Source: Chryseobacterium rhizosphaerae (GTDB lineage: Bacteria; Bacteroidota; Bacteroidia; Flavobacteriales; Weeksellaceae). Taken from it: 64,000 bases of DNA. This document shows positions 34,942-49,476 of this stretch, piece by piece; positions within the stretch are counted from its first letter, which is position 1, and each line of letters opens with the position of its first letter. The translations under genes were made by a program, and so were the position numbers. Where the stretch lies: assembly GCF_003385455.1 (NCBI RefSeq), contig NZ_QNUF01000002.1, forward strand, positions 124,001 to 188,000, read 5' to 3'. Under the pieces are notes generated by a model. The model was not told where the DNA came from. It ran no database searches and saw only the letters and a list, made by a program, of their open reading frames with translations.

Positions 34942-36369
34942 CTATGTCAGCAGCTCCGGGTTTTCGTTAAAGGTTTTCCATAATAATTCTCCAAATAAAG
35001 TATTCGACCATGCGAACCATTCTCTGGTGAATTTTTTGTCGTTGTCTTTATGGAAGGACTCATGCATAAAGCCTGTCCCACCGTGCGTTTTCTGTAAGGT
35101 GTCTATGCACCATTTAATCTCACCTGTATCTTTAGTGGTGAGTGCTTTCATAATGATACTCATCGGCCAGATCATATCAAGCCCAATGTGTGGCCCTCCA
35201 ATTCCTTCCGCCAGTTTACCTTTGAAAAAGAATGGGTTATTTTCTGACCAAACAAATTTCCTTGTGTTCACATACACAGGATCATCTGCTTTTACGGCAT
35301 CTAAATAAGGCAGACCCAATAAGCTCGGACAATTGGCATCATCCATCAGGTTATAGCTTCCAAAGCCATTAACTTCAAAAGCATATATTTTTCCATATTC
35401 CGGATGATTGTAAATTCCGTACTTTTTAATGGCGGCATCCACCTCATCAGCAAGGCTGGTAAGTTGCTGAGCCAGACCTTTTTCATTTTTGATCTGAGAA
35501 ACCATTTCTGCTGCCTGACGTAGGCTTACCACAGCAAATAAATTAGAAGGAATTAAAAATCCATAAATCGTAGCATCATCACTTGGGCGGAACATGGAAC
35601 TGATCAGTCCAACCGGTTTTGTAGGATACCCATATCCTCCCATTGGAACACCATCTGTAGCCCAAGCCGTTGTACGCTCAAACTTGTAAGGTCCCAGGTC
35701 TTTTTTTCTCTGCTGCTCAGTAAATGTCTGTAGGGTAAGCTTAATGCCCTGTAGCCAATTAGCATCAAAAGGTTTGGTATCTCCTGTTGTTTTCCAAAAA
35801 TGATAAGCCAAACGAATAGGATAACACAAAGAATCTATTTCCCACTTTCTTTCATGGGTACCAGGTTTCATATCTGTATGATCGTATTCTTTCCATTTAC
35901 TTATTTTTTTGTCATCATTATAAAATGCATTGGCATAAGGATCTTTCAGAATGAATTTCGTCTGTTTATAAATAACCCCTGAAATAAGCTTGTGAAGTTT
36001 TTCATCTTTTTTTGAAAACTGTAAATAAGGAAAAACCTGCGCAGAGCTGTCACGAAGCCACATCGCATCAATATCACCCGTAATTACATAAGTATCAGGA
36101 GTTCCATTATTTTCACTGTAAAAAACAGTAGTATCTAATGTATTCGGAAAACAGTTTTCAAAAAGCCAGCTTAATTCTTTATTTTTTACTTTCTTTTTAA
36201 AAGCCGCAATAGCACTTTCTACGGATTCACTGGTAAAATGTCTTTTATCTTTGGGAACACGAACAACAGGAAAATCGTCCATCACCAGATTCTTTGCAAA
36301 AACATTCTGTGTAAACAGCAATCCGGCTCCTGCCAGTGCACTTGTTTTAATAAAATTTCTCCTTTCCAT
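34942..36369 (-). CDS. GH125 exo-alpha-1,6-mannosidase
   Basis: Metal-independent inverting alpha-mannosidase, 475 residues. The N-terminus MERRNFIKTSALAGAGLL has a twin-arginine pattern (RRNFIK), so the enzyme may be exported folded to the periplasm. Family features are ITGDIDAMWLRDSSAQVFPY (about 96-115), an ERTTAWATDGVPMGGYGYPT region and the C-terminal HESFHKDNDKKFTREWFAW. It removes the alpha-1,6-linked mannose from trimmed N-glycan cores, after GH92 has acted on alpha-1,2 and alpha-1,3 bonds. It follows a GH92 gene by 32 bases. Confidence 0.92.
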   Translation of the reverse strand: MERRNFIKTSALAGAGLLFTQNVFAKNLVMDDFPVVRVPKDKRHFTSESVESAIAAFKKKVKNKELSWLFENCFPNTLDTTVFYSENNGTPDTYVITGDIDAMWLRDSSAQVFPYLQFSKKDEKLHKLISGVIYKQTKFILKDPYANAFYNDDKKISKWKEYDHTDMKPGTHERKWEIDSLCYPIRLAYHFWKTTGDTKPFDANWLQGIKLTLQTFTEQQRKKDLGPYKFERTTAWATDGVPMGGYGYPTKPVGLISSMFRPSDDATIYGFLIPSNLFAVVSLRQAAEMVSQIKNEKGLAQQLTSLADEVDAAIKKYGIYNHPEYGKIYAFEVNGFGSYNLMDDANCPSLLGLPYLDAVKADDPVYVNTRKFVWSENNPFFFKGKLAEGIGGPHIGLDMIWPMSIIMKALTTKDTGEIKWCIDTLQKTHGGTGFMHESFHKDNDKKFTREWFAWSNTLFGELLWKTFNENPELLT

Positions 36370-36401: not shown

Positions 36402-38633
36402 TTATTTTACAGGCTTACTTCCCATTACAAATCTCAGCTCTCCACCATTCATAATATCACTGTGGTTCAATTCCCAGCTCTTGTACTCTTTCCCGTTCAG
36501 GAACATTTTCTGAACGTAAATGTTTTTATCGGATATCTTGTCTGCTACTACGGTAAATGTTTTTCCATTTTCCAACAGCAATGAAGCTTTAGGAAACTGA
36601 GGTGCACCAATTGCATAGACAGGTTTCCCTGGTGTCACCGGATAAAATCCTAATGAAGAGAAAATATACCATGCCGACATCTGTCCGCAGTCTTCATTAT
36701 TCACAATTCCATCAGGTTTAGCCGCATACATATTATCACGGATATATTTGATCATTTTCTGAGTCTTATAAGGACTTCCTGCATAATTATACAGGTATGG
36801 AACATGATGCCCCGGTTCATCTCCAAACCCCAAAGAGCCGATGAATCCTGAAATATCAACATGCTGTTCTCCCTGCATATTAAGAGCTTCTGTAAATGTT
36901 TTATCCAGTTTTTCTTCAAACCCTTTTTTCCCTCCGTACAGGTTCATCATTTCATCAATCTGGTGAGGAGCAAAAAAATCATATGCCCAGATGTTCCCGG
37001 AAACCCAGTGTGGCTGAAGCTTTTTCCAATCGTTCAGTGCAAAATCTGCTAAAAATTTTCCGTCTTTCTGTCTTGGCCAGAAGTGACTATTTTCTTTATT
37101 GAAAGTATTCAGGAAGTTCATAGAACGCTTCTTATAGACTTCTGCATCTTCTTTTTTACCCAGTTTTTCTGCAAGCTGCTGGATACACCAGTCATCATAA
37201 GCATATTCAAGGGTGGCAGAAACAGAAGCTCCGTTTTCCGAAGGAGAATACCCCAGTTTAATATAATCGTTTAGGCCTCCTCCTCCATCACTGCTGCTCA
37301 TTTTATCTGTTAAAGAAGCATCTTTCATTGCAGCAAAGGCTTTTTCAGCATCAATACCCGGTACACCTTTTGAAATAGCATCCCAAATGACCGATACACT
37401 GTGATAACCCAACATACAGAAATTATCGTATCCACATAATTCCCAGATAGGCATATGGTCTTTACGGTCGGTATACCTGCTGATCAGGGAGTTGGCAAAT
37501 TCTTTGGTATGTTTCTGATCCATAATGGTCAGCAGAGGATGGGTTGCTCTGAAGCCATCCCAATAAGAATAGGTACTGTAGTTGGTAAACCATTTGGTAT
37601 TCATATTTTCCTGAGCAGCCACATAGTCTCCATTGGCATCCATATAAAGGTTAGGAGCTATAAATGTATGATAAACCCCTGTATAGAAAATCTTTCTCTG
37701 ACTGTCTGTACCTCCTGTCACCTGAAATCTTCCGATAAGATCTCTCCATGTCTTTTGTGCCGTTTCTTTAGCTTTTGCAAAATCCACATTCGTAGCCTCA
37801 GCATCAAAATTCTCCTGTGCATTTTCTGTACTTACCGGAGATAAAGAGACTTTCACTTCGATACTTTCCTTATCTTCTGTAGAGAATCTTACAAAAGCTT
37901 TCGCATCCTTAGCAAGGGCAATCTTTTCGTTGTTTTTGATTTTTCCTTCGGCATACACTCCGTAAGATTTGAAAGGTTTTGAAAACTCCATCACGAAATA
38001 AGCAAATCGCTTACCTCCCCAACCATTGCTGTAGCAGTATCCTTTTATTTTGTTATTACCCTCTACACTTACCAGAGTATGGTAAATATTTCCAAAAATT
38101 TTATTGGTTGGATCAATAATGATATTGGATTCATCACTCTTGGGGAATGTATACTTATGAAATCCCACTCTTGGAGAAGCCGTAAGTTCGGCTTTGATTC
38201 CATAGCTGTCGAGCATTACTGAATAATATCCCGGGGCCGCCGTTTCTTTTTCATGACTGAATTTTGAACGATAGCCTGTCTCGGGCTTATCTTCTGATCC
38301 CGGAACCATTTTTACCTGACCTACGGTAGGCATAACCAGAATATCTCCAAGATCTGCCCATCCTGTTCCACTAAGGTGATTGTGGCTGAATCCCATGATC
38401 GTCTTACTGCTGTAATGATACCCGGAACACCAGTCCCAGTCTCCACTTTTAGTATTCTGATCCGGACTTAGCTGAATCATCCCAAACGGTGTGGTAGCTC
38501 CCGGAAACGTATGGCCGTGGCCTCCTGTCCCAATAAAAGGATCTACCCAGGATAAGACATCCCCCTTTTGTTGTTGGGCATTCACCGTAGAAACCAGGAG
38601 TGTAAAAAAACAGATAAGCAATTCTTTTTTCAT
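36402..38633 (-). CDS. GH92 alpha-mannosidase
   Basis: Calcium-dependent inverting exo-alpha-mannosidase, 743 residues, with a signal peptide ending NAQ at residue 20. It starts with WVDPFIGTGGHGHTFPGA (29-46), has SYWDGFRATHPL (356-367), the acid motif GDEPGHH with Glu606, and NNEDCGQMSAWYIFSSLGF (645-663) for base and calcium binding. Unlike the other GH92 in this window it keeps the acid Glu, so ordinary hydrolysis of alpha-mannosides (1,2 or 1,3) is expected. It lies 22 bases after a 30-residue membrane ORF and 32 before GH125. Confidence 0.93.
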   Translation of the reverse strand: MKKELLICFFTLLVSTVNAQQQKGDVLSWVDPFIGTGGHGHTFPGATTPFGMIQLSPDQNTKSGDWDWCSGYHYSSKTIMGFSHNHLSGTGWADLGDILVMPTVGQVKMVPGSEDKPETGYRSKFSHEKETAAPGYYSVMLDSYGIKAELTASPRVGFHKYTFPKSDESNIIIDPTNKIFGNIYHTLVSVEGNNKIKGYCYSNGWGGKRFAYFVMEFSKPFKSYGVYAEGKIKNNEKIALAKDAKAFVRFSTEDKESIEVKVSLSPVSTENAQENFDAEATNVDFAKAKETAQKTWRDLIGRFQVTGGTDSQRKIFYTGVYHTFIAPNLYMDANGDYVAAQENMNTKWFTNYSTYSYWDGFRATHPLLTIMDQKHTKEFANSLISRYTDRKDHMPIWELCGYDNFCMLGYHSVSVIWDAISKGVPGIDAEKAFAAMKDASLTDKMSSSDGGGGLNDYIKLGYSPSENGASVSATLEYAYDDWCIQQLAEKLGKKEDAEVYKKRSMNFLNTFNKENSHFWPRQKDGKFLADFALNDWKKLQPHWVSGNIWAYDFFAPHQIDEMMNLYGGKKGFEEKLDKTFTEALNMQGEQHVDISGFIGSLGFGDEPGHHVPYLYNYAGSPYKTQKMIKYIRDNMYAAKPDGIVNNEDCGQMSAWYIFSSLGFYPVTPGKPVYAIGAPQFPKASLLLENGKTFTVVADKISDKNIYVQKMFLNGKEYKSWELNHSDIMNGGELRFVMGSKPVK

Positions 38634-38748: not shown

Positions 38749-39720
38749 TTAGATTGAATTTTTTTTCATAAAATCAATAATTTCAGAAATATATCCAAAC
38801 GCGATAGCTACCACTGTGTCGGCAGCACCATAATATACGGTTACTTTATCTCCTTCAGTCAATGCAGCACATGGGAAAACCACATTCGGCACATCTCCTG
38901 TCAGTTCATACACTTCTGCCGGAGCCAGCAGATAAGGTTTTGTTCTGTACAATACTTTTGTAGGATCTTCAAGGTCAAGCAATGCTGCTCCCATTGAATA
39001 TCTGAATCCTCTGCAGGTATTGATTACCCCATGATAGAAAAGTAACCATCCTTCCTCTGTTTTTATAGGAACCGGACCTCCCCCGATTTTTGTACACTGC
39101 CAGGCACTGTCTTCAAAAGGAGTTACTTTCATTACACAACGGTGCTCTCCCCAGTATTTCATATCAGGACTGTAGCTGATATAAATATCACCAAAAGGCG
39201 TATGTCCGTTATCACTTGGACGGCTCAGCATCGCATATTTTCCATTGATCTTTTCAGGGAAAAGCACTCCATTTCTATTGAATGGCAGAAAAGCATTTTC
39301 ACACTGGAAAAATTCCTTAAAATCAAAAGTATATCCAATTCCAATGGTAGGTCCATTATATCCGTTACACCATGTAATCCAGTAACGATCTTCAATAAAA
39401 GTAACGCGGGGATCATATTTGTAATCAGATTCAATCATTTCTGTGTTTCCTGCCTTCATTTCAATAGGGTCATGATTGATTTCCCAATTGATTCCATCTT
39501 TACTGAAACCTGCAAAAATATTCATCTGCACCGCTTTGTTGTCACAGCGGAATACCCCTGCAAATCCATCCTCAAAAGGAATCACAGCACTGTTGAATAT
39601 ACTGTTTGACGTTGGTATTGCATATCTGTTAATGATCGGGTTTTCGGAAAACCTCCACATGATATCATTGCTACCTTCCGGGCGATCCTGCCATGGGATC
39701 ATTACTGATTGAGCTGTCAT
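38749..39720 (-). CDS. GH130 beta-mannosyl phosphorylase
   Basis: Cytoplasmic phosphorylase, 323 residues, no signal peptide. By similarity to the Bacteroides N-glycan enzyme (BT1033 type), it should split Man-beta-1,4-GlcNAc with phosphate into mannose-1-phosphate and GlcNAc. Family traits are the five-bladed propeller with [20 protein letters not shown] (about 27-46), YKDPRV-like [15 protein letters not shown] and [21 protein letters not shown]. It sits next to an MFS transporter as in Bacteroides N-glycan loci, so the disaccharide is probably imported and then phosphorolysed. Start at MTAQSV. Confidence 0.9.
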
Positions 39721-39763: not shown

Positions 39764-41056
39764 TTATTGTTCTTTTTGATTTTCCGAATATGGAAACGGA
39801 ACCCATAGGGTTACAAGAAATGCCGGAATAGTAGCGATCAGTACCCAGATAAAAAATATTTTATATCCTACCCAGTCGCTGATCATTCCACTGAACATTC
39901 CCGGAATCATCACTCCGAGATTCATAATACCTGTTGCAAATGCATAATGGGCTGTTTTATGTTTTCCCGGGGCAATCTGCTGCATCATGTATAGCATAAG
40001 TCCGACAAACCCAAAACCATAACCAAAATACTCCACCACTACTGCAATTCCTACCGGCAAGAGATCAGCAGGCTGGTAGTACGCTAATAAAGCATAGACT
40101 ACAAATGGAATATTGAATGCAGAGCATAACCATATCAATGATCTCTTCAATCCGCGGGCTGAAATAAAATAACCGGCCAGTACAGATCCTAAAATAAATG
40201 CTGCAGAACCATACGTTCCATAAATAAGTCCAATATCTGATGTTGAAAGTCCTAATCCTCCTGAGGACCTTGGCGCTTTAAAAAATAACGGTGCAATTTT
40301 TATAGCAAACCCTTCAGCAAAACGATACAAAATAATGAACAGTACAGACCATAAGATGTTCTTCTTTGTAAAAAATGAGGTAATGACTTCCAGCAATTCC
40401 TGACGGACATTTCCTGCTGTTTTTTTATCTTTCTCTGATACTTCTTTGTTTTCTTTTGGCAGAATCAGGTAGTGGTATATAGCTAATACAAAAAACAATA
40501 GAGCATAAATCACCATAATGATCATCCATGCACGGGTTACCCCTTTTGTTTTTTCTAAAACCCCGGCAAAATAAACTAATGCCCCACTACTGATAATTTT
40601 GGCCAGATTATAAAAAGCTCCCTGCCAGCCTATATATTTTGCCTGCTCTTTATTGGTAAGGAAACTGATATAGGTTCCATCTGCCACCACATCATGAGTC
40701 GCTCCACAAAAGGCAATAACCGCAAAAAGAGCAATACTGTATTTGAAAAAATCCTGCAAAGGAAGACTTAATGCCACCAAAGCAAACAAAATTCCTATCG
40801 CAAACTGGGTAACAACAACAAAGAATTTTTTGGTTTTATAGATCTCCAGAAAAGGACTCCAAAGAGGCTTTAACGTCCAGGAGAACATAACCAGAGCTGT
40901 CCAAAATGTAATTTGGGCATCTGAAACTCCCATATCTTTATACATAATCCCGGAAACTGCATTAATGGTTACAAAGGGCACTCCCATTGCAAAATATAAT
41001 GTAGATATCCAAAGGATGGGTTGTATTGAACGGGTTTCAGAGTTGTTTTTTCCCAT
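39764..41056 (-). CDS. MFS transporter, putative Man-GlcNAc importer
   Basis: Twelve-helix MFS protein of 430 residues. I start it at 41056 (MGKNNSETRSIQPILW); the longer frame to 41179 would translate an inverted-repeat element. It resembles AmpG-like carriers rather than sugar porters. Gene order with GH130 (43 bases downstream) matches Bacteroides N-glycan loci, where such a carrier is proposed to bring Man-beta-1,4-GlcNAc into the cytoplasm. The substrate is therefore inferred. It lies between SusD and GH130. Confidence 0.85.
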   Translation of the reverse strand: MGKNNSETRSIQPILWISTLYFAMGVPFVTINAVSGIMYKDMGVSDAQITFWTALVMFSWTLKPLWSPFLEIYKTKKFFVVVTQFAIGILFALVALSLPLQDFFKYSIALFAVIAFCGATHDVVADGTYISFLTNKEQAKYIGWQGAFYNLAKIISSGALVYFAGVLEKTKGVTRAWMIIMVIYALLFFVLAIYHYLILPKENKEVSEKDKKTAGNVRQELLEVITSFFTKKNILWSVLFIILYRFAEGFAIKIAPLFFKAPRSSGGLGLSTSDIGLIYGTYGSAAFILGSVLAGYFISARGLKRSLIWLCSAFNIPFVVYALLAYYQPADLLPVGIAVVVEYFGYGFGFVGLMLYMMQQIAPGKHKTAHYAFATGIMNLGVMIPGMFSGMISDWVGYKIFFIWVLIATIPAFLVTLWVPFPYSENQKEQ

Positions 41057-41078
41057 ATTAAAATAAGGTTCTAAAAAA

Positions 41079-41200
41079 AGAGGGCATCTCAAAATTTCAT
41101 TCCGACTTAAAACGAAACTATAGAAGAATAAATTATCGGAGATTCTCCTCTCCTTACGAAATGAACACTCAGGGTACAACCTGATTTTTGAGATGCCTCT
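41079..41200. repeat. MITE-like inverted repeat element
   Basis: A 122 bp segment bounded by near-perfect terminal inverted repeats: AGAGGGCATCTCAAAA on the left and AGAGGCATCTCAAAA (complement) on the right, of which 12 bases pair perfectly. The ends resemble those of Bacteroidota IS elements. It contains no coding capacity and separates the SusCD pair from the transporter in an otherwise tight operon. Confidence 0.55.
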
Positions 41201-41222: not shown

Positions 41223-42872
41223 TTATAATTTTTTATCCCACCATAATTTTGTACTTCCGATATCAGGACCACCCAGCGTACTCGCAGCTTTTTGATATCC
41301 AACCGGATTATTATTACGGTATTTTGTTGCAATTGGTATTCTTCTGACCATTTTATCTGTATCAATATTTCCCTGACTGGAATTCAATACGTTTTTAAAC
41401 AAAATAGGATATCCAGTTCTTCTTTGTTCAGCCCAGGCTTCAGAACCGTCAGGATACAAAGCAAGCCACTTTTGAGTCATCAATCTTTCCAATTTTCTTT
41501 CTGGATTATCCGCCTCATTCCATTTGATGGTAACAGTACTTAACATTGAATTTCCTGCAGGAATATTATTGACCGCATTTTTGGGATCAGTATAGGCTTG
41601 CTCCACAGAAGTGGCATCATTGATATAGGCATTGTAATCAGCACTTTTCCCCCATTCATCCATAGACGTTCTTACCCCCATTTCATAATTACTTTTGGCA
41701 TCACCGGCTCCTGTATATCCAAATAAAGCTGCTTCAGCTTTTAAAAACCAGGTTTCTGCAGCCGTAAATATCTTCCCTTTTCCGTTTTGATTTCCCGGTG
41801 CAAAATAAGCACCTCCCGCCGCATCAGCTAAGGGAACTGAATAATTTACATAGAACGTTTTATCTCCTTTCAGATCAATACCCTGACGAATCCCTATATA
41901 TTGTCCTGCCGCCGCCGGATCGGTTGCTTTAAAGGCATATGCACTGATTCTCGGATCTTTAAATCCATTTAAGTAAGCTAAAAGCGGAGCCCCTGATCGG
42001 CAATCTCCCCAGTCATAGATCACTCCTCCTATTGGAGAAGGCGTTCCGTAATTAATGAGCGCATTGTCTGTATTATTTTCAATAAGACCTACCGGAGATG
42101 CAAGCGCCTCTTCTGCAAACTTTTTAGAATCTACCGGTGCCGCATATCGCATTCTCATGGCAATTCTGAATTTAAGAGAGTTCGCAAATTTCATCCATTT
42201 TACTGTATCACCTCCAAAAAATACATCAGCCGATTTAATTACCGATTTATCTTCAACAGCTATATTGGCGTTTTGGAGAACTGTAATGGCATTCGTTAAA
42301 TCCGCAATAAAAAAATGATAAGCATCGGCCTGAGAATCAAAATCAGTAGATCCATCACTATTCGGTTTATTGAATTTACTATAGATCACAGGTCCATGGG
42401 CATCAGAAACTTTAAGACTGGAAACCACCTTAATAATATCCATGATCGCCAATGATTTATCAAAGTTATATCCCGGATAGGTTTTCTCCATAACAGCCTT
42501 AAAAATATCTTTCTTGTTAAGAATATCTTCAAGCTGGGTAATCATTATCCTTTCATTCCAGTTATCCATCATAAAATATGTTGAATTGAAATTATTTCCA
42601 TTGAAAGGATTAGAGGTACTGAAATACCCACTAAACATATCGGCATTCAGGTTTTGTTGCAACTGATATACTCCAAGATTATAATGTACCAAACCTCTTT
42701 GCATAAGTTTCATTGAAGATACCAATTGTCCAAAATCAGCATTCAGTTGCTCATCTCCTAAACCTGGAGTATACTCACTGTTAATTTTATCAAAATCACT
42801 TGTACAGCTTACAGTAAACAGGCCTGTAGCCATTAACAAATAAAACGCTTTATATTTAAAATATTTTTTCAT
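41223..42872 (-). CDS. SusD/RagB-like glycan-binding lipoprotein
   Basis: Surface lipoprotein of 549 residues that caps the SusC channel and binds glycan. The signal ends LFTVSC with acylated Cys23. The sequence belongs to the SusD-like type 2 group (RagB/SusD nutrient uptake), with WNERIM near residue 105, FGGDTVKWMKFANSLKFRIA (about 218-237) and the C-terminal RIPIATKYRNNNP. TPR-like helices are expected in the first half. It starts 9 bases after the SusC stop, so the pair is co-translated. The ligand is most likely an N-glycan. Confidence 0.92.
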   Translation of the reverse strand: MKKYFKYKAFYLLMATGLFTVSCTSDFDKINSEYTPGLGDEQLNADFGQLVSSMKLMQRGLVHYNLGVYQLQQNLNADMFSGYFSTSNPFNGNNFNSTYFMMDNWNERIMITQLEDILNKKDIFKAVMEKTYPGYNFDKSLAIMDIIKVVSSLKVSDAHGPVIYSKFNKPNSDGSTDFDSQADAYHFFIADLTNAITVLQNANIAVEDKSVIKSADVFFGGDTVKWMKFANSLKFRIAMRMRYAAPVDSKKFAEEALASPVGLIENNTDNALINYGTPSPIGGVIYDWGDCRSGAPLLAYLNGFKDPRISAYAFKATDPAAAGQYIGIRQGIDLKGDKTFYVNYSVPLADAAGGAYFAPGNQNGKGKIFTAAETWFLKAEAALFGYTGAGDAKSNYEMGVRTSMDEWGKSADYNAYINDATSVEQAYTDPKNAVNNIPAGNSMLSTVTIKWNEADNPERKLERLMTQKWLALYPDGSEAWAEQRRTGYPILFKNVLNSSQGNIDTDKMVRRIPIATKYRNNNPVGYQKAASTLGGPDIGSTKLWWDKKL

Positions 42873-42881
42873 ACTACAGAA

Positions 42882-45803
42882 TTAAAAATTTAATTTCACT
42901 GAGAATCCTACTGATCGTGTTATTGGAATTCCAAATATATCTACCCCAACACCTCCGGGATTAACCCCTGAAACTTGTTCAGGATCAAACGGAGCTTTCT
43001 TATAAAGGAAGAAAAGATTGGTCCCAATCACACTTAGTGTTGCATCCGAAAGGTATTTTGAATTCACTTTAAAAGTATAGGAAACAGAAGCCTGTCTTAA
43101 TCGTATGGCAGTAGCTTTATACATATAGGCCTCTGTTAGAGGATCTCTACCTCCTATACTTGAATAGTAAGCCTGAGCATCTGTTTTGTCAGTGTAAGGT
43201 GTTCCGTCCTCTTTCACTGCATTTTCTATAACAACTCCACCGGCATCACGGGCATCTGCAGATGTTTTACTTACTCCTAGCTGATCATTCATTGCCTGGG
43301 TAATACTTAGAACTTTACCTCCAAACTTCCCATCTATCAGGAAGCTTACATTTAAGTTACCAATATTAAAGGAGTTATTGAGGCCAAGCATAAATTTAGG
43401 GTTTGGATTCCCTAAATAATTATCTTTATTTTCTGTTCTTCTGGGAACTCCGTTCTTATCTACAATAATACGTCCCTGATCATCTCTTAAAAAAGCAAAC
43501 CCATAGATATCTCCGAAAGAGCCTCCTACTTTAAGTCTGTTATAACCACTTCCTATTAATTCAAGACTGATATTGGAATCCTGGAAATACTTTACAGGTA
43601 ATAACTCTATTATCTTGTTTTTATTGGAAGAAGCATTGAATGTTGCTGTCCATCCAAATTTCTGTCCTTTGAAAATATCATAAGAAATAGCAGATTCAAA
43701 ACCTGTATTCTGAATGTTTCCGGCATTTATCGTTACTTTACCATTATTGTATGGATCACCAAAACCTATTGCACTTACATCTTTCAACATTTGATTGGTT
43801 GTATTTGATTTGTAATATGTGAAATCAAAGGTCAATCTATTATTCAAAAATCTCAATTCAGTTCCCGCTTCAAAAGTTTTATTTAATTCAGGTTTCAGCC
43901 AAAGATCTTTAAATTCTTCACCGGTAATAGGTGAACCACTGAAACCAATAGGGGTTCCTGCATCAAAACCACTGATGTGATTGATCAAAATGGGATCCAA
44001 TGCATTACCCACTCTTGCATAGGAAGTTCTCACTTTCCAGAAATTAATCGCCTTAGGCAGCGTAAAAATATCTGAAAGAATAGCATTTGCCCCTACAGAC
44101 TGATAATCAAAAGAAGTATTGGTTTTTCCATAAAGATCAGCTAATGTTGAAGACCAGTCATTTCTATATGTTAAATCCAGATAAACCAATTTTTTATATC
44201 CTATTGTAGTACTGGCAAATACAGACTGATCCTGTCGGTTTCCATTATATATGGTGTATGAAGCTACACTTTCATCCCGTTCTTTTGGCCAGTATAGATT
44301 ATTAGCTGTAAACAGATTGGGTAGCTTTAACAAGCTATTATCTATTTTGGATGTTAAAGATCTTAAATCCGAGATACTTGCTCCTACGGTAAAGTCTAAG
44401 CTGATATCATCTGTGATATGTGGAGATCCCAGCAATAGTACATCTCCATATTTGGTGGTACGCTCTATTGAATTTTTAATAAGTCTTCCGTTTTTTCGTC
44501 CCTCATAGGTTCCCGGCAAAACAGTTGAAAGAGAATAGGCTGAAATCTGTCTTTCAGTATCTGAGAAATAATAACTGTAATTTCCACGGGCCTGAATATT
44601 TAACCAACTGTTAATGGCATAATTCAAGGATGCTGATCCGTAGAAGTTTTTGTTCGTTGTAGTTACAGGGTTTCTGTTCAGCACCCACATTGGATTTTGG
44701 TCTTCTGTAGAAAAAACACCATTAGAATCTATATTCCACCAGTTCTGGGCAGGCAGGTTTCTTGATTTATCCAGGTATGAATAATTATTGGCATAATAAT
44801 CAAAATCTACTCCTCGTGGCAACCAATAAATACTGGTTAAAGGAGAAAACCATCTTCCCGGGGACGCCCTGTTTTTAGAATCCTGTAGAGAAGCCATAAC
44901 ATTGGCTTCTAAAGTCAGTTTATCATCTAAAAACTTACTGGAGTTCCTGAAATTGACATTATACTGCTTAAAATTAGAAGTTGGAATAATCCCATCGTTC
45001 GTTGTATTTCCTATAGAGAAAAAGTTTTGAGACTTTTCATTACCGGCACTGAAAGTAAGGCTATTTGTCAATGTTGTTCCTGTGTTCAGAAAATCCTTCA
45101 GATAGTCTTTTGAAGCACCTTTTTCTCCCCAGCTTCCCTCAGAGCCCGGTGTATGGGTTGTGGGATTATGTGGGGTGGTCTGAAGATAGCTGTATTGAAG
45201 CTTCGGCAGATCATACGCTTTATCAAAAGTAAGACTTGACGAAAAAGACAGTTTACTTCTTCCTTTTGAGCCTTTTTTTGTCGTAATCAATACGACACCG
45301 TTACTTCCTTGTGACCCATATAATGCTGAAGCAGACGCTCCTTTCAGGAAGTTGATACTTTGAATATCTTCAGGATTAATCATACTGAAAATATCTCCTG
45401 TATCCGGCATTTGTGAGAATACCATGGCATCCGGCCCTCCGGTATTATTGATAATCGGAATACCATCTATTACAAAAAGAGGCTGGCTGTTTCTTGTAGA
45501 TTTATCCCCACGCATTACTATTCTTACAGAACCTCCTACACCACCATTCGTTTTGTTGATTTGCACGTTGGAAACTTTTCCATTGATAGAATTTAAAAGA
45601 TTGGGAGTTTTTACTTCCGTAAGCTCATCGCCACCAATCTGCTGGCTGGAGTAAGTCAGAGACCTGGCCTGTCTTTTTATCCCCAAAGAAGTGACAACAA
45701 CCTCCTGAATATCGGTTGCCTTAGTGGTGTCGGCTGTTTTTTTCTCTTGTGCATTTGCCAAAAAGGAAAAAACGAATAGAACCGGTATAACTGCTTTTCT
45801 CAT
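42882..45803 (-). CDS. SusC/RagA TonB-linked outer-membrane transporter
   Basis: TonB-dependent oligosaccharide importer of 973 residues. After the signal peptide (about 1-18) the TonB box region DIQEVVVTSLG (31-41) comes immediately, with no CarboxypepD_reg-like domain in front, so it is a short-form SusC. The plug domain covers about 45-175 with PLFVIDGIPI and LKGASASALYGSQGSNGVVL; the barrel follows and ends RSVGFSVKLNF. It is first in a train of N-glycan genes running down to 27.3 kb. Expression is probably activator-dependent through the 35-base box at 45982-46016. Confidence 0.94.
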   Translation of the reverse strand: MRKAVIPVLFVFSFLANAQEKKTADTTKATDIQEVVVTSLGIKRQARSLTYSSQQIGGDELTEVKTPNLLNSINGKVSNVQINKTNGGVGGSVRIVMRGDKSTRNSQPLFVIDGIPIINNTGGPDAMVFSQMPDTGDIFSMINPEDIQSINFLKGASASALYGSQGSNGVVLITTKKGSKGRSKLSFSSSLTFDKAYDLPKLQYSYLQTTPHNPTTHTPGSEGSWGEKGASKDYLKDFLNTGTTLTNSLTFSAGNEKSQNFFSIGNTTNDGIIPTSNFKQYNVNFRNSSKFLDDKLTLEANVMASLQDSKNRASPGRWFSPLTSIYWLPRGVDFDYYANNYSYLDKSRNLPAQNWWNIDSNGVFSTEDQNPMWVLNRNPVTTTNKNFYGSASLNYAINSWLNIQARGNYSYYFSDTERQISAYSLSTVLPGTYEGRKNGRLIKNSIERTTKYGDVLLLGSPHITDDISLDFTVGASISDLRSLTSKIDNSLLKLPNLFTANNLYWPKERDESVASYTIYNGNRQDQSVFASTTIGYKKLVYLDLTYRNDWSSTLADLYGKTNTSFDYQSVGANAILSDIFTLPKAINFWKVRTSYARVGNALDPILINHISGFDAGTPIGFSGSPITGEEFKDLWLKPELNKTFEAGTELRFLNNRLTFDFTYYKSNTTNQMLKDVSAIGFGDPYNNGKVTINAGNIQNTGFESAISYDIFKGQKFGWTATFNASSNKNKIIELLPVKYFQDSNISLELIGSGYNRLKVGGSFGDIYGFAFLRDDQGRIIVDKNGVPRRTENKDNYLGNPNPKFMLGLNNSFNIGNLNVSFLIDGKFGGKVLSITQAMNDQLGVSKTSADARDAGGVVIENAVKEDGTPYTDKTDAQAYYSSIGGRDPLTEAYMYKATAIRLRQASVSYTFKVNSKYLSDATLSVIGTNLFFLYKKAPFDPEQVSGVNPGGVGVDIFGIPITRSVGFSVKLNF

Positions 45804-46176
45804 AAGGTTTAGATTAGTTAGATTTATTTGAAAATCAATTACATCACTTTAAATAGTTCCTTAGTGTTTAATACAAATTCTTTTATTTTTTAAACAATAA
45901 TATGCTCTTTATGTATTAAATAATTTAAAGTTTTGTTAAGATTTAATTCATATTAGCAAATCTAAATTTTGTTAGCAGTCCGATATAATACTATTTTGTC
46001 ATAAAACGATATTATTCTTTCATACACTTTCAAAAAAAGAACACAATAGGCTATTTTACAGCAATATACATACGTTTACATTCTGCTAATTAAAGTAGCT
46101 TTATTTCACTTTTTAACAAAAAAAATCCAGATATTAAATCCAGATTCTCAGGCTAAAATGCTAGTAACCTACCTTA
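45804..46176 (-). other. Long upstream region of susC
   Basis: No gene. It holds the susC promoter/operator (45941-46018) and a putative untranslated leader of about 145 bases between the -7 box and the start codon. Near 46124-46146 a short repeat of ATCCAG may be the terminator of the AraC gene, but the stem has two mismatches. Confidence 0.5.
45941..46018 (-). promoter_or_regulatory. susC promoter/operator, copy A of shared element
   Basis: On the - strand the -7 box is TAGATTTG (45957-45964). Seventeen bases upstream of it is a 35-base box (45982-46016) with GATAT/ATATC ends and an ACGATATTATT tail. The same arrangement with 34 of 35 box bases identical precedes the GH18 lipoprotein gene. 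No -33 motif is visible, as expected for an activator-dependent promoter. The adjacent AraC proteins are the candidate activators. Confidence 0.7.
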
Positions 46177-47055
46177 TTATTCAATTTTTTTCACTCCTTT
46201 AAACTGCTCACGGAATTCTGTGGGAGTTGTTTTTTTTATGGATTTAAAGACTTTATTAAAGTTGGCAATATTATTAAACCCCGCTTCAAAAGCAATTTCA
46301 AAAACCGTCAGATTTTTTTCCATCAACCAGCGGGCAGCATAGCTGATTCTTATTTCATTAAGGTAATTAACAAAAGTTTTCCCTATTCTCTTTTTAATAA
46401 ATCTGTTAAAAGTAACATTACTCATATTGATAAGCGAAGCGACATCATCCAGTGTTATTTTATTTTCAAAATTCTTATGAACGAAATCATGAACGATTTT
46501 CATTTTATCATTATCTGCAAAACTTTCAAGCTCTATACTATAAGACGACAAAAACGTTTTATCTTGTGCAATAGCCAGTTCATTAAGAATCTTCATCATC
46601 TCTATAAAAGATTCGAAACTGTTCATTTTTGAGAGGTTAAGAAACGAATCTTTTAGTTTTTCTGCCGTTTCTGTAGAAAACAGTATTCCTCGTATTGAAT
46701 CCTTTACCAGATTATTGATGGGTTTCAGAATATTTTTCTGCATCAATGACTGGCTAAAAAAATCCTGATTGAACTGGATGGTAATCTCATGTGTTTTTCT
46801 GTTTTTACATTTGTGATTAGCCCAACAATGTGGAAGGTTTGGCCCTACCAGCACCAATTCTATATTACCGATTTCTCCTGTATGATCGCCTACCATTCTG
46901 CGGTACCCTTTCCCTTTATAAATAAAATTGATTTCAATTTCCGGATGGTAATGGTATGGAAAATCAAAAGAGGCTTTGATCCTGTCAAATACAAGAAAAC
47001 TGTCTTCAGGAGATAGTGGAGTTATTTCTCTTAAAATATTTTCTAATTCACTCAT
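46177..47055 (-). CDS. AraC-family regulator 1
   Basis: Transcription factor of 292 residues with an N-terminal cupin-like sensing domain (FPYHYHPEIEINFIYKGKG, about 32-50) and a C-terminal pair of helix-turn-helix motifs (about 190-285). These include ITLDDVASLINMSNVTFNRF and VFEIAFEAGFNNIANFNKVF. The cupin layout resembles sugar-responsive AraC proteins. It sits between susC and the endoglycosidase gene, both of which carry the same upstream box, and is the best candidate to bind it. All three genes are on the same strand but appear separately transcribed. Confidence 0.92.
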   Translation of the reverse strand: MSELENILREITPLSPEDSFLVFDRIKASFDFPYHYHPEIEINFIYKGKGYRRMVGDHTGEIGNIELVLVGPNLPHCWANHKCKNRKTHEITIQFNQDFFSQSLMQKNILKPINNLVKDSIRGILFSTETAEKLKDSFLNLSKMNSFESFIEMMKILNELAIAQDKTFLSSYSIELESFADNDKMKIVHDFVHKNFENKITLDDVASLINMSNVTFNRFIKKRIGKTFVNYLNEIRISYAARWLMEKNLTVFEIAFEAGFNNIANFNKVFKSIKKTTPTEFREQFKGVKKIE

Positions 47056-47196
47056 GCAGCAGTTTTGAAAAATTAAAAGCTAGTAATTTATGGTATTCAA
47101 ATACATAATTATCACTCATAATTTGAATGACTAAATTACGGTTATTTTTATAATGGAAATCATTACACTTGTATGCTAACCCTTATTTATAGAAAT

Positions 47197-47229
47197 AAAG
47201 CCGTTTCACAAATTTGTAGAAACGGCTTT
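47197..47229 (-). terminator. Terminator after the GH18 lipoprotein
   Basis: A perfect 11 bp stem AAAGCCGTTTC, whose loop ACAAATTTGTA is itself self-complementary. It separates the endoglycosidase from the AraC gene downstream. Confidence 0.8.
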
Positions 47230-47306
47230 CATACTTAGTTTCTTTATTCTCTTGAATATCTTTCAGTCAAAGGTTAAGACATTGACCACAGGAGAATTTA
47301 TTTCCA

Positions 47307-48299
47307 TTAATAGGTTTTAAGTTTTACTATCATTTCCTGATAATATTTATAATCTAATTTCTTGTCAAAATTAAATCCATACGCTCCGTAACCTCCTACT
47401 TTGGACTGATATTTCGGGGAAGTATAATATTGTTTCAGACGCAATGGTCCCTGGCTGCTATCCGTAGAAGAATATGCCGCCTCAAAATCTGCTGAGATTA
47501 GCATGATCCGTTCCTTTGGAAAACCAGCCTGTACATAACCATCAATTTTACCGTCGGTATAAGCCTCACTGCCCCAATAATCCTGTATATATATGGAGCT
47601 GATTTTCGTAAGTGTTTCTTGTGACAGCTTTAATTCTGACAACCCAACATTTGTATCAATGATTAACAATTTGCCGGATTTGGATTTAGGACCAAAGTAT
47701 TTGGCAAACGCCTGTACATAAAGATCCCAATCATTGCTATCGATTCCGGTCGTAGAATATCCAGGTTCTAAGTCCAGATCTATTCCGTCAAATCCCCACT
47801 TGTTCAAAGAATCCGACACCTTTTTAGCATATGCATCATAATCTTCCGGGGTGTTTTGAAATTTTATTGTTTTCCTTTCATCTTTATAGTTTTCAAAAAT
47901 CTCATTTAAAAACTGGGTTTGGACTACTATTGTCCCTTTAGACTTCAGATATTGGATGTCATTAACAATTTCAGTCAGTGTTTTAGCATCTTCACCGGTT
48001 GCGCCCGGAGTTCTATCTCCTCTCTTTAAATTACAAAGTCCTGAAAAGCGATGAAATAAATTGACGATATCCACACCTTCAGGAATATCCCTTAGATTAT
48101 AATAATCAGGAGTTACTCCTCCTCTTGTTAACCCGTTGAAGTATCCAACTACTTTAAATTTTTTATGACTTATGGCTTCAAGTGGATCCGGATGTTGTGG
48201 ATCAACTGTACCTTCATCTCCTGTACAAGAAATACAGTTCAAAGACAATAAAATTAAGATCAATAACTTTAAAAAAGAATTTTTAGTTTTGTTTTTCAT
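47307..48299 (-). CDS. GH18 endoglycosidase lipoprotein
   Basis: A 330-residue lipoprotein endo-beta-N-acetylglucosaminidase. I start it at 48299 (MKNKTKNSFLK), giving a signal ending NCISC with acylated Cys25; the upstream frame would add 23 residues with no function. The catalytic motif DGIDLDLE (171-178) fits DxxDxDxE with Glu178 as acid, closer to the Endo F2/F3 and Endo S branch than to Endo H/F1. It may therefore take complex or core-fucosylated chains. It lies upstream of AraC 1 and shares its promoter with susC, so it probably acts as the surface enzyme of the same locus. Confidence 0.88.
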   Translation of the reverse strand: MKNKTKNSFLKLLILILLSLNCISCTGDEGTVDPQHPDPLEAISHKKFKVVGYFNGLTRGGVTPDYYNLRDIPEGVDIVNLFHRFSGLCNLKRGDRTPGATGEDAKTLTEIVNDIQYLKSKGTIVVQTQFLNEIFENYKDERKTIKFQNTPEDYDAYAKKVSDSLNKWGFDGIDLDLEPGYSTTGIDSNDWDLYVQAFAKYFGPKSKSGKLLIIDTNVGLSELKLSQETLTKISSIYIQDYWGSEAYTDGKIDGYVQAGFPKERIMLISADFEAAYSSTDSSQGPLRLKQYYTSPKYQSKVGGYGAYGFNFDKKLDYKYYQEMIVKLKTY

Positions 48300-48609
48300 A
48301 TCTTCTGTTTTTGCACGATTATCAATACATGAAATAAATATTAACCACTTTATCAATTTTACACTCAATTATCATCAAACAATTTAATTTTCATTAATAT
48401 TTAATTCATATTTACAAATCTAAATTTTGTGCCTTGACAGATATAATACTATTTTATCATAAAACGATATTATTTTTCACATCTTCATACCATTCCATCA
48501 GATAACTGATTGACAGTATCAAAAGAAACCTCATTATATATTCCTTGTTTTGATAATTTAATGTAGATGAAATCATGCTTTTTTGTATCTTTAAAATTAA
48601 AGTTAAAGT
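48300..48609. other. Divergent promoter region, GH18 lipoprotein and AraC 2
   Basis: No gene. The left half holds the - strand promoter/operator copy B. The right half is AT-rich and should hold the + strand promoter of the AraC 2 gene, though no clear TAnnTTTG box is seen there. Confidence 0.5.
48399..48476 (-). promoter_or_regulatory. GH18 promoter/operator, copy B of shared element
   Basis: The same layout as upstream of susC: -7 box TAGATTTG on the - strand (48415-48422), a 17-base gap, then the 35-base box (48440-48474) differing from the susC copy at one base. The gap differs in most positions, so the conserved parts are under selection rather than merely recent copies. Confidence 0.7.
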
Positions 48610-49476
48610 ATGTCTCAACAGCTTATTTTTGAAGATCATTATAAAAGACTCGGACTGGAAATATTCTCAGAAGAGAATCTGAAAAAGGTAAACGGGAATC
48701 AGTTCAGATCAGATATTAAAGTCTTTTTTATTCCTGCTGGTTATGAGCTTACCATAGATTTCAATCATTACAGAACACAGAAACCGGCTTTATTTTTTCT
48801 TACCAATCAGCACCTGGTTATAGAAAAAGGAAAAGAAGAATCCGTCTTGCTTTATTATAACCGCGATTTTTACTGTATCCAGATTCATGATAAAGAAGTA
48901 GCGTGCGACGGTCTTCTTTTTCATAATGTCTTTGAAATACCTTTCGTAGAACTTGACCACGAAGAAACTGTGATCATTAAAAACCTGTTTCAAAATATCA
49001 GGAACGAACTTGAATGGAAAGACTCTTCGGCCGAAGAAATGATCAGAACCTATGTAAAACAGATTATTATCCGGGCTACCAGAAAGTGGAAAAAGCAGAA
49101 TCTGGATAATGACATTATAAAGATTCCGGGCAGTGAACTTGACATTTTCAGGGACTTCAGCAGGCACCTGGAAATTCACTTCAGAGAAAAGCATCATGTA
49201 GCAGACTATGCCGAACTCTTACATGTGGCACCCAAAACACTTAGCCATAAGTTTAAAAACCTCAATTTGGATTCTCCCAACCAGTTTATTATCAACAGGA
49301 TTTTATTAGAGGCAAAAAGACTCCTTTTCTATACAGATAAACCCGTTAAAGAAATTGCCTATGACCTGGGCTATGAAGATCCGGCCTATTTCAACAGACT
49401 TTTTACCCATAAAACAGGAAGCACACCCACTAATTTCAAGAAAAATTACAGCTCGGGAAAAAAGTACAATATTTAA
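48610..49476 (+). CDS. AraC-family regulator 2
   Basis: Transcription factor of 288 residues. The N-terminal 150 residues form a probable cupin-type ligand domain. The C-terminal HTH pair is clear: HHVADYAELLHVAPKTLSHK (about 196-215) and KEIAYDLGYEDPAYFNRLF (about 248-266). It is divergent from the GH18 lipoprotein and next to OsmC. It may act on the glycan locus or on its own downstream genes; the sequence does not decide. Confidence 0.9.
   Translation: MSQQLIFEDHYKRLGLEIFSEENLKKVNGNQFRSDIKVFFIPAGYELTIDFNHYRTQKPALFFLTNQHLVIEKGKEESVLLYYNRDFYCIQIHDKEVACDGLLFHNVFEIPFVELDHEETVIIKNLFQNIRNELEWKDSSAEEMIRTYVKQIIIRATRKWKKQNLDNDIIKIPGSELDIFRDFSRHLEIHFREKHHVADYAELLHVAPKTLSHKFKNLNLDSPNQFIINRILLEAKRLLFYTDKPVKEIAYDLGYEDPAYFNRLFTHKTGSTPTNFKKNYSSGKKYNI

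Follow-up and report, generated by a model that had tools for sequence, protein, structure and literature searches.

The window analysed here, a stretch of 64,000 nucleotides from Chryseobacterium rhizosphaerae, carries two similar blocks of DNA, one before a susC gene and the other before a gene for a GH18 endoglycosidase, both oriented along the minus strand. What these blocks are, which protein acts on them and to which signal that protein responds are the questions raised by this locus (Table 1).

Two copies of one block in a predicted N-glycan locus

Comparison of the blocks bore out the two matching 78-base segments of the preliminary description: positions 45941-46018 and 48399-48476 are identical at 67 of 78 bases, versus 42 of 78 for the next best 78-base match within the window. 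A repeat finder returned 45925-46019 and 48383-48477 (95 nt, 79/95, 83%). As had been described, each block holds a 35-base box, differing between the copies at a single position, and a -7 box (TAGATTTG, minus strand) 17 bases away. The gap between them had been said to diverge. This holds for the 9 bases adjoining the 35-base box, of which 2 match, but not for the 8 bases adjoining the -7 box (AATTTTGT on the plus strand), which are the same in both copies.

When the whole genome was scanned with the pattern of operator plus -7 box, two perfect sites were found, which are the two blocks, and no other site was perfect; the next three have 3 mismatches each (a control pattern gave two matches). 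Without the requirement for a -7 box, the genome gave one extra match (2 mismatches), at which no -7 box is present. No larger regulon was found in the genome by the scans with and without the -7 box, and the small regulon proposed earlier for a duplicated promoter/operator stands, with two targets at the sole perfect sites. Five matches away from the locus were fetched. Those of G134, G128, G119 and G000:C6 lack a -7 box at the corresponding place; the fifth, in G090, is accompanied by one and precedes a mannan-type SusCD pair. Judged by sequence, susC and the GH18 gene share one copied, putatively AraC-type, promoter/operator.

Table 1. Predicted genes and control elements of the locus, in positions of the window
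Feature	Position	Strand	Basis and remarks
SusC-like TonB-dependent transporter, first gene of the operon, first target	42882..45803	-	Pfam
SusD-like lipoprotein	41223..42872	-	Pfam
MFS sugar transporter	39764..41179	-	Pfam; listed start TTG, true start probably further in
GH130, beta-mannoside phosphorylase by family	38749..39720	-	Pfam; nearest solved relative UHGB_MP (4udg)
GH92 alpha-mannosidase	36402..38633	-	Pfam
GH125 alpha-mannosidase	34942..36369	-	Pfam
AraC1, AraC-type HTH, cupin-like N-terminus (sub-threshold)	46177..47055	-	Pfam, co-occurrence, trees
GH18 endoglycosidase, EndoS-type TIM barrel, DGIDLDLE motif, second target	47307..48299	-	Pfam
AraC2, neighbour outside the system by co-occurrence	48610..49476	+	Co-occurrence
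Operator 1 (susC), proximal half-site GACAAAATAGTATTA	45986..46000	-	Pattern scan
Operator 1, distal half-site AGAATAATA	46010..46018	-	21 bp from proximal half-site
-7 box TAGATTTG of the susC promoter	45957..45964	-	21 nt after proximal half-site
Conserved stretch directly downstream of the susC -7 box, probable transcript start	45919..45956	-	Alignment
Operator 2 (GH18), proximal half-site GATAAAATAGTATTA	48444..48458	-	Pattern scan
Operator 2, distal half-site AAAATAATA	48468..48476	-	Pattern scan
-7 box TAGATTTG of the GH18 promoter	48415..48422	-	Pattern scan

The operon runs along the minus strand in the order susC-susD-MFS-GH130-GH92-GH125. Upstream of susC follow AraC1, GH18 and then AraC2 on the plus strand. 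The GH130 protein matches UHGB_MP with E 1.8e-149, and the GH18 protein is a lipoprotein by inspection of its N-terminus. The gene set for N-glycan utilization is complete at the locus (GH92, GH125, GH130, SusCD, MFS and GH18), and the earlier assignment of the regulon to N-glycans agrees with this gene content of the operon. In AraC1, the Pfam families HTH_18 and HTH_AraC scored above and Cupin_2 and AraC_binding below their cut-offs, and Pfam gave neither a sensor kinase nor a receiver domain.

In each block, a half-site GAYAAAATARYATTA stands exactly 21 nt before TAGATTTG, and a second half-site in direct repeat lies 21 bp further up, which in most relatives reads AAAATARTA. The proximal half-site has GAYAAAATARYATTA without mismatch in all 22 compared sites, each of which was picked as the best match to GAYAAAATARYATTA in its stretch. 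Self-correlation of the profile, computed on sites that are related to each other, was highest among 16 spacings for the direct repeat at 21 bp (r=0.72), while the inverted-repeat correlation was 0.23 at 21 and reached its maximum of 0.51 at 19. TAGATTTG fits TAnnTTTG, which PMC9723704 gives as the -7 box of flavobacterial sigma-A promoters. Reading of the sequence against the -33 consensus revealed no evident -33 element. A promoter scan of the E. coli type did no better than shuffles, with 15 promoters found versus 15.6 expected. Stable hairpins lie after GH18 (z -5.3) and AraC1 (z -4.3), although a simple terminator scan did not list them; these hairpins suggest that each target probably begins its own transcript.

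The operator had not been recognised from any described system. This is correct for its sequence, for which we found no description, but not for its architecture, which matches the published direct repeat with a -7 box. A literature search, from which subscription papers mostly fall out, gave no publication naming the operator by title or opening. The predicted AraC operator and its regulator are well supported; the architecture is a known one, but the sequence and the regulon are without a description that we could find.

Conservation of the susC copy and rarity of the GH18 copy

Searched with the 95-base query, 79 of the 148 genus genomes gave strong matches (E <1e-15). At E 0.01 the number rose to 111 of 148, with short and weak matches beyond the 79. 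The loci fetched were 78 besides the window's own, together with two that have a diverged AraC1. The order operon, block, AraC1 is found in 79 of 79 loci. Between susC and AraC1, the mean pairwise identity of these loci is 0.97 and 0.94 for the half-sites, 0.99 for the linker and 1.00 for the -7 box, and 0.84 for the 21-nt spacer and 0.52 upstream of the half-sites. In the 78 loci L021-L098, of which three have two sites and two have a one-mismatch site, every one of the 79 perfect sites is followed by TAGATTTG at exactly 21 nt. With up to one mismatch allowed, 98 of 99 sites in 100 loci have TAnnTTTG at 21 nt.

Just 3' of the susC -7 box, identity over 38 nt is 0.91, versus 0.68 in the rest of the leader (79 loci). 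The conservation of this stretch exceeds what the -7 box explains, and the GH18 copy retains part of it.

Variation in the SusC/SusD pair was also observed. SusC forms 11 types and SusD 9 types (85% and 80% clusters) in L021-L098 and the window, with pairwise minima of 0.58 and 0.49. The enzymes and the MFS transporter on one flank and AraC1 on the other show identities of at least 0.81. Proteins with internal stops or below 90% coverage were left out of these alignments, which retained 75-78 of 79 rows. It seems that SusC and SusD are swapped together as a cassette, and the window's own type (41223-45803) is common only to G042 among the compared loci.

Of the two copies, that at susC is widespread (79 loci) and that at the endoglycosidase gene is a rare accessory. 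The GH18 gene is present in 3 of 148 genus genomes (the window's own, G112 and G138), and also in G175, among 20 further loci of which 7 are from the genus. A scan of named genomes gave close loci in Chryseobacterium paridis and Chryseobacterium sp. LAM-KRS1, and a distant match in Cetobacterium. The window's nearest relative, G185 (AraC1 98%), has no GH18 gene. In G052 (L082:14130-14700), a second block stands before a remnant whose 19 residues match the end of GH18 (79% identity), the remainder being gone. This remnant is a deletion scar of GH18, which means that the GH18 module was lost at least once; elsewhere the module may have been gained by transfer.

It is worth considering whether the similarity of the two blocks reflects a recent segmental copy that has no regulatory role at GH18. 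The module is rare and perhaps young in some lineages, and box 2 of the window resembles box 1 of the genus type, being nearest to box 1 of G112 and G175 (0.88). Box 2 copies of different lineages are 0.71-0.87 identical over 78 nt, and box 2 may have arisen once or by repeated copying. In G112, G138 and G175, on the other hand, the second copy, at 0.77-0.79 identity to its own box 1, has kept the pattern, the spacing and the -7 box; the susC copy is in addition conserved across 79 loci. We consider an inert copy very unlikely, and regard the second block as a probable promoter of GH18.

The probable regulator and its operator beyond the genus

The preliminary description had named the AraC gene between the two targets as the likely activator, and possibly the second AraC gene as well. 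AraC1 is present at 70% identity or more in 81 of 148 genus genomes, and all 81 have the site (up to 2 mismatches) next to AraC1. This co-occurrence supports the first of the two proposals. AraC2 is present at 70% identity in 109 of 148; it is missing in 19 of the 81 genomes having AraC1 and the operator, and it occurs in 47 genomes without AraC1, so that the second proposal was not upheld. In favour of a rival reading, in which AraC2 would act at the block alone or together with AraC1, one could point to the position of AraC2, a gene divergent from GH18 whose start lies some 130 bp from box 2, and to the 42-55% identical AraC2 relatives that several of the 19 genomes carry elsewhere (e.g. G107 and G007). 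The DNA-binding domains of AraC1 and AraC2, however, are 25% identical, and the GFNNIANFN segment of HTH2, identical in 12 aligned AraC1 proteins from operator-bearing loci, differs in AraC2. Together with the failing co-occurrence, these facts make a role of AraC2 at the block highly improbable. AraC1 is very probably the activator of both promoters.

In G090, the site is present and AraC1 was not found; the contig breaks off shortly upstream of this site, and the assembly may simply lack AraC1. At this end of contig 22 (L165), the operator has 1 mismatch, TAGATTTG stands at 21 nt and a mannan-type SusCD pair lies downstream. AraC1 is broken by stops or fragmented in G038, G063 and G119, where the block and the operon persist.

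In the family, AraC1 was found at E 1e-60 or better in 111 of 320 genomes, 13 of them from other genera, and all 13 were fetched. Two (G315 and G225) have the N-glycan operon and the block. Seven of the 13, and the genus genomes G078 and G135, have a different SusC, with the block beside AraC1. Each of these nine mannan-type loci encodes a GH26 relative, adjacent to AraC1 or close by, together with SusCD and MFS; six have GH130 in the stretch as well, and some have GH5 and GH27. The Pfam matches of selected proteins from L100, L136, L137 and L141 agree with this mannan-type content. In the mannan-type loci the proximal half-site also faces the divergent operon. The distal half-sites are weak on this divergent side, and the dimer model therefore leans on the susC-side sites. 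The divergent operon begins with a gene whose product, about 430-440 aa long, has no Pfam match (L100:13805-15121, L136:15002-16312 and L137:2558-3847); a relative of it adjoins AraC1 in L206. The site was not found in the remaining four of the 13 (G198-G201), in which AraC1 is 41-42% identical and, of the operon, MFS and GH130 alone are present.

Across the order, AraC1 was found in 57 of 395 genomes, 30 of them outside the window's family. Twenty of these 30 were fetched, and they were not used for deriving the pattern. Fifteen of the 20 carry, no more than 300 bp from AraC1, a half-site (up to 2 mismatches) that has TAnnTTTG at exactly 21 nt, and 8 of them carry one on both sides of AraC1; L199, L201, L202, L205 and L206 have no such site in this range. 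In the loci without the site (these five of 20, and four of 13 in the family), AraC1 is 36-53% identical. Among 59 half-site matches, 24 have a -7 box at 21 nt (13 without mismatch) and none at 17-20 or 22-25 nt, and controls with the half-site or the -7 box read backwards gave 0. GH26 and mannan-type GH130 relatives are nearby in 14 of the 20 loci. L203 and L204 have the site beside AraC1 (50% identical) and also encode SusCD and GH3, the latter as judged by Pfam on L203 only; neither GH26 nor GH130 was found within their fetched stretches. These two loci perhaps represent a third substrate under the same circuit.

The earlier term N-glycan regulon is thus appropriate for the operon of the window, but too narrow for the regulator/operator pair, which is also found in beta-mannan loci elsewhere. 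That the box is instead a dyad operator (ATAATA-TTTTAT-G-ATAAAA-TATTAT) of another dimeric regulator, as the 31-bp dyad of the genus sequence (12 of 15 pairs, counted by eye) might suggest, is hardly credible and was rejected, since the TTTTAT arm does not persist outside the genus while the direct repeat is kept there.

The proposed circuit, its history and known systems

We propose, with high confidence, that both blocks are activator-dependent sigma-A promoters with an AraC1 operator, that they probably respond to a beta-1,4-mannosyl signal and that GH18 is co-controlled. What was observed are the sites with their spacing, the conservation of these sites alongside AraC1 and the order of the genes; binding, activation, inducer, cell location and the substrates of the enzymes are inferred. 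A pair of AraC1 subunits would occupy the half-sites AAAATARTA and GAYAAAATARYATTA, which form a direct repeat at 21 bp. The proximal half-site, ending 21 nt before TAGATTTG, would occupy the usual -33 position, and RNA polymerase would be held there by AraC1. This position of the operator and the lack of an evident -33 box suggest an activator and not a repressor. Since AraC1 has no kinase or receiver match and a weak cupin-like N-terminus, it should sense a cytoplasmic sugar. The signal would be a beta-1,4-mannosyl disaccharide, here Man-beta-1,4-GlcNAc, which SusCD and the MFS carrier would import and the GH130 phosphorylase would cleave. The second promoter copy would place under the same control the GH18 endoglycosidase, presumed to free N-glycans from glycoproteins.

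The history of the circuit was considered on the basis of two midpoint-rooted AraC1 trees, made from 31 of 98 rows and from 43 chosen rows. AraC1 of the N-glycan type forms one clade (support 100/99) nested among the mannan types; in the 43-row tree, the long branches L206 and L143 meet, and their joint place is unsure. This nesting suggests, as the simplest reading, that the regulator and the operator were kept while the enzymes were exchanged. An AraC control site of an ordinary type, which serves plant-mannan genes in related bacteria, has apparently been re-used here for glycoprotein-derived sugars. The GH130 mannoside phosphorylase is the chemical feature shared by most loci, which points to a beta-1,4-mannosyl disaccharide as the inducer. 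The GH3 loci L203 and L204, having neither GH26 nor GH130, indicate that a beta-mannoside need not be the signal of every member. A broader hypothesis, to which we give an even chance, is that one AraC regulator and its operator were kept across at least two families through a shared, sensed beta-1,4-mannosyl disaccharide, while the enzymes were exchanged from those for beta-mannan (GH26/GH5/GH27/GH130) to those for N-glycans (GH92/GH125/GH130/GH18), and that a later promoter duplication added the endoglycosidase in a few species.

For a widespread Chryseobacterium locus, the analysis names a regulator together with its operator sequence and likely inducer, and the operator pattern is searchable, which allows further targets to be found. 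The results suggest that control circuits of Bacteroidota can outlast the enzymes that they control. Operators may therefore help to predict which loci answer to one small sugar.

The Bacteroides pathway for N-glycans consists of GH130, an MFS carrier, alpha-mannosidases, SusCD and GH18, and its Man-beta-1,4-GlcNAc phosphorylase is reportedly the subject of Nihira 2013, a paper cited in PMC9522356. The locus of the window shares all of these components, as judged here from the genes alone, and differs from that pathway in gene order and regulator. Compared with the flavobacterial sigma-A promoters of PMC9723704, both promoters fit in the -7 box and differ in having no evident -33 element.

The mannan-type loci can be likened by gene content to the beta-mannan PUL of Muricauda sp. 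MAR_2010_75, for which PMC9860051 lists GH26, GH130, a symporter, SusCD and an expressed AraC-type regulator, FG28_RS02325. That PUL additionally has a hybrid two-component regulator, and the word "promoter" does not occur in the text of that paper. The hybrid two-component systems of Bacteroides, according to PMC3878776, control SusCD through AraC-type direct-repeat motifs averaging 21 bp. AraC1 differs from them in having no histidine kinase or receiver match in Pfam, and the likeness concerns the layout of the motif: the 21 bp direct repeat, the AraC-type DNA-binding domain and the association with SusCD loci are common to both.
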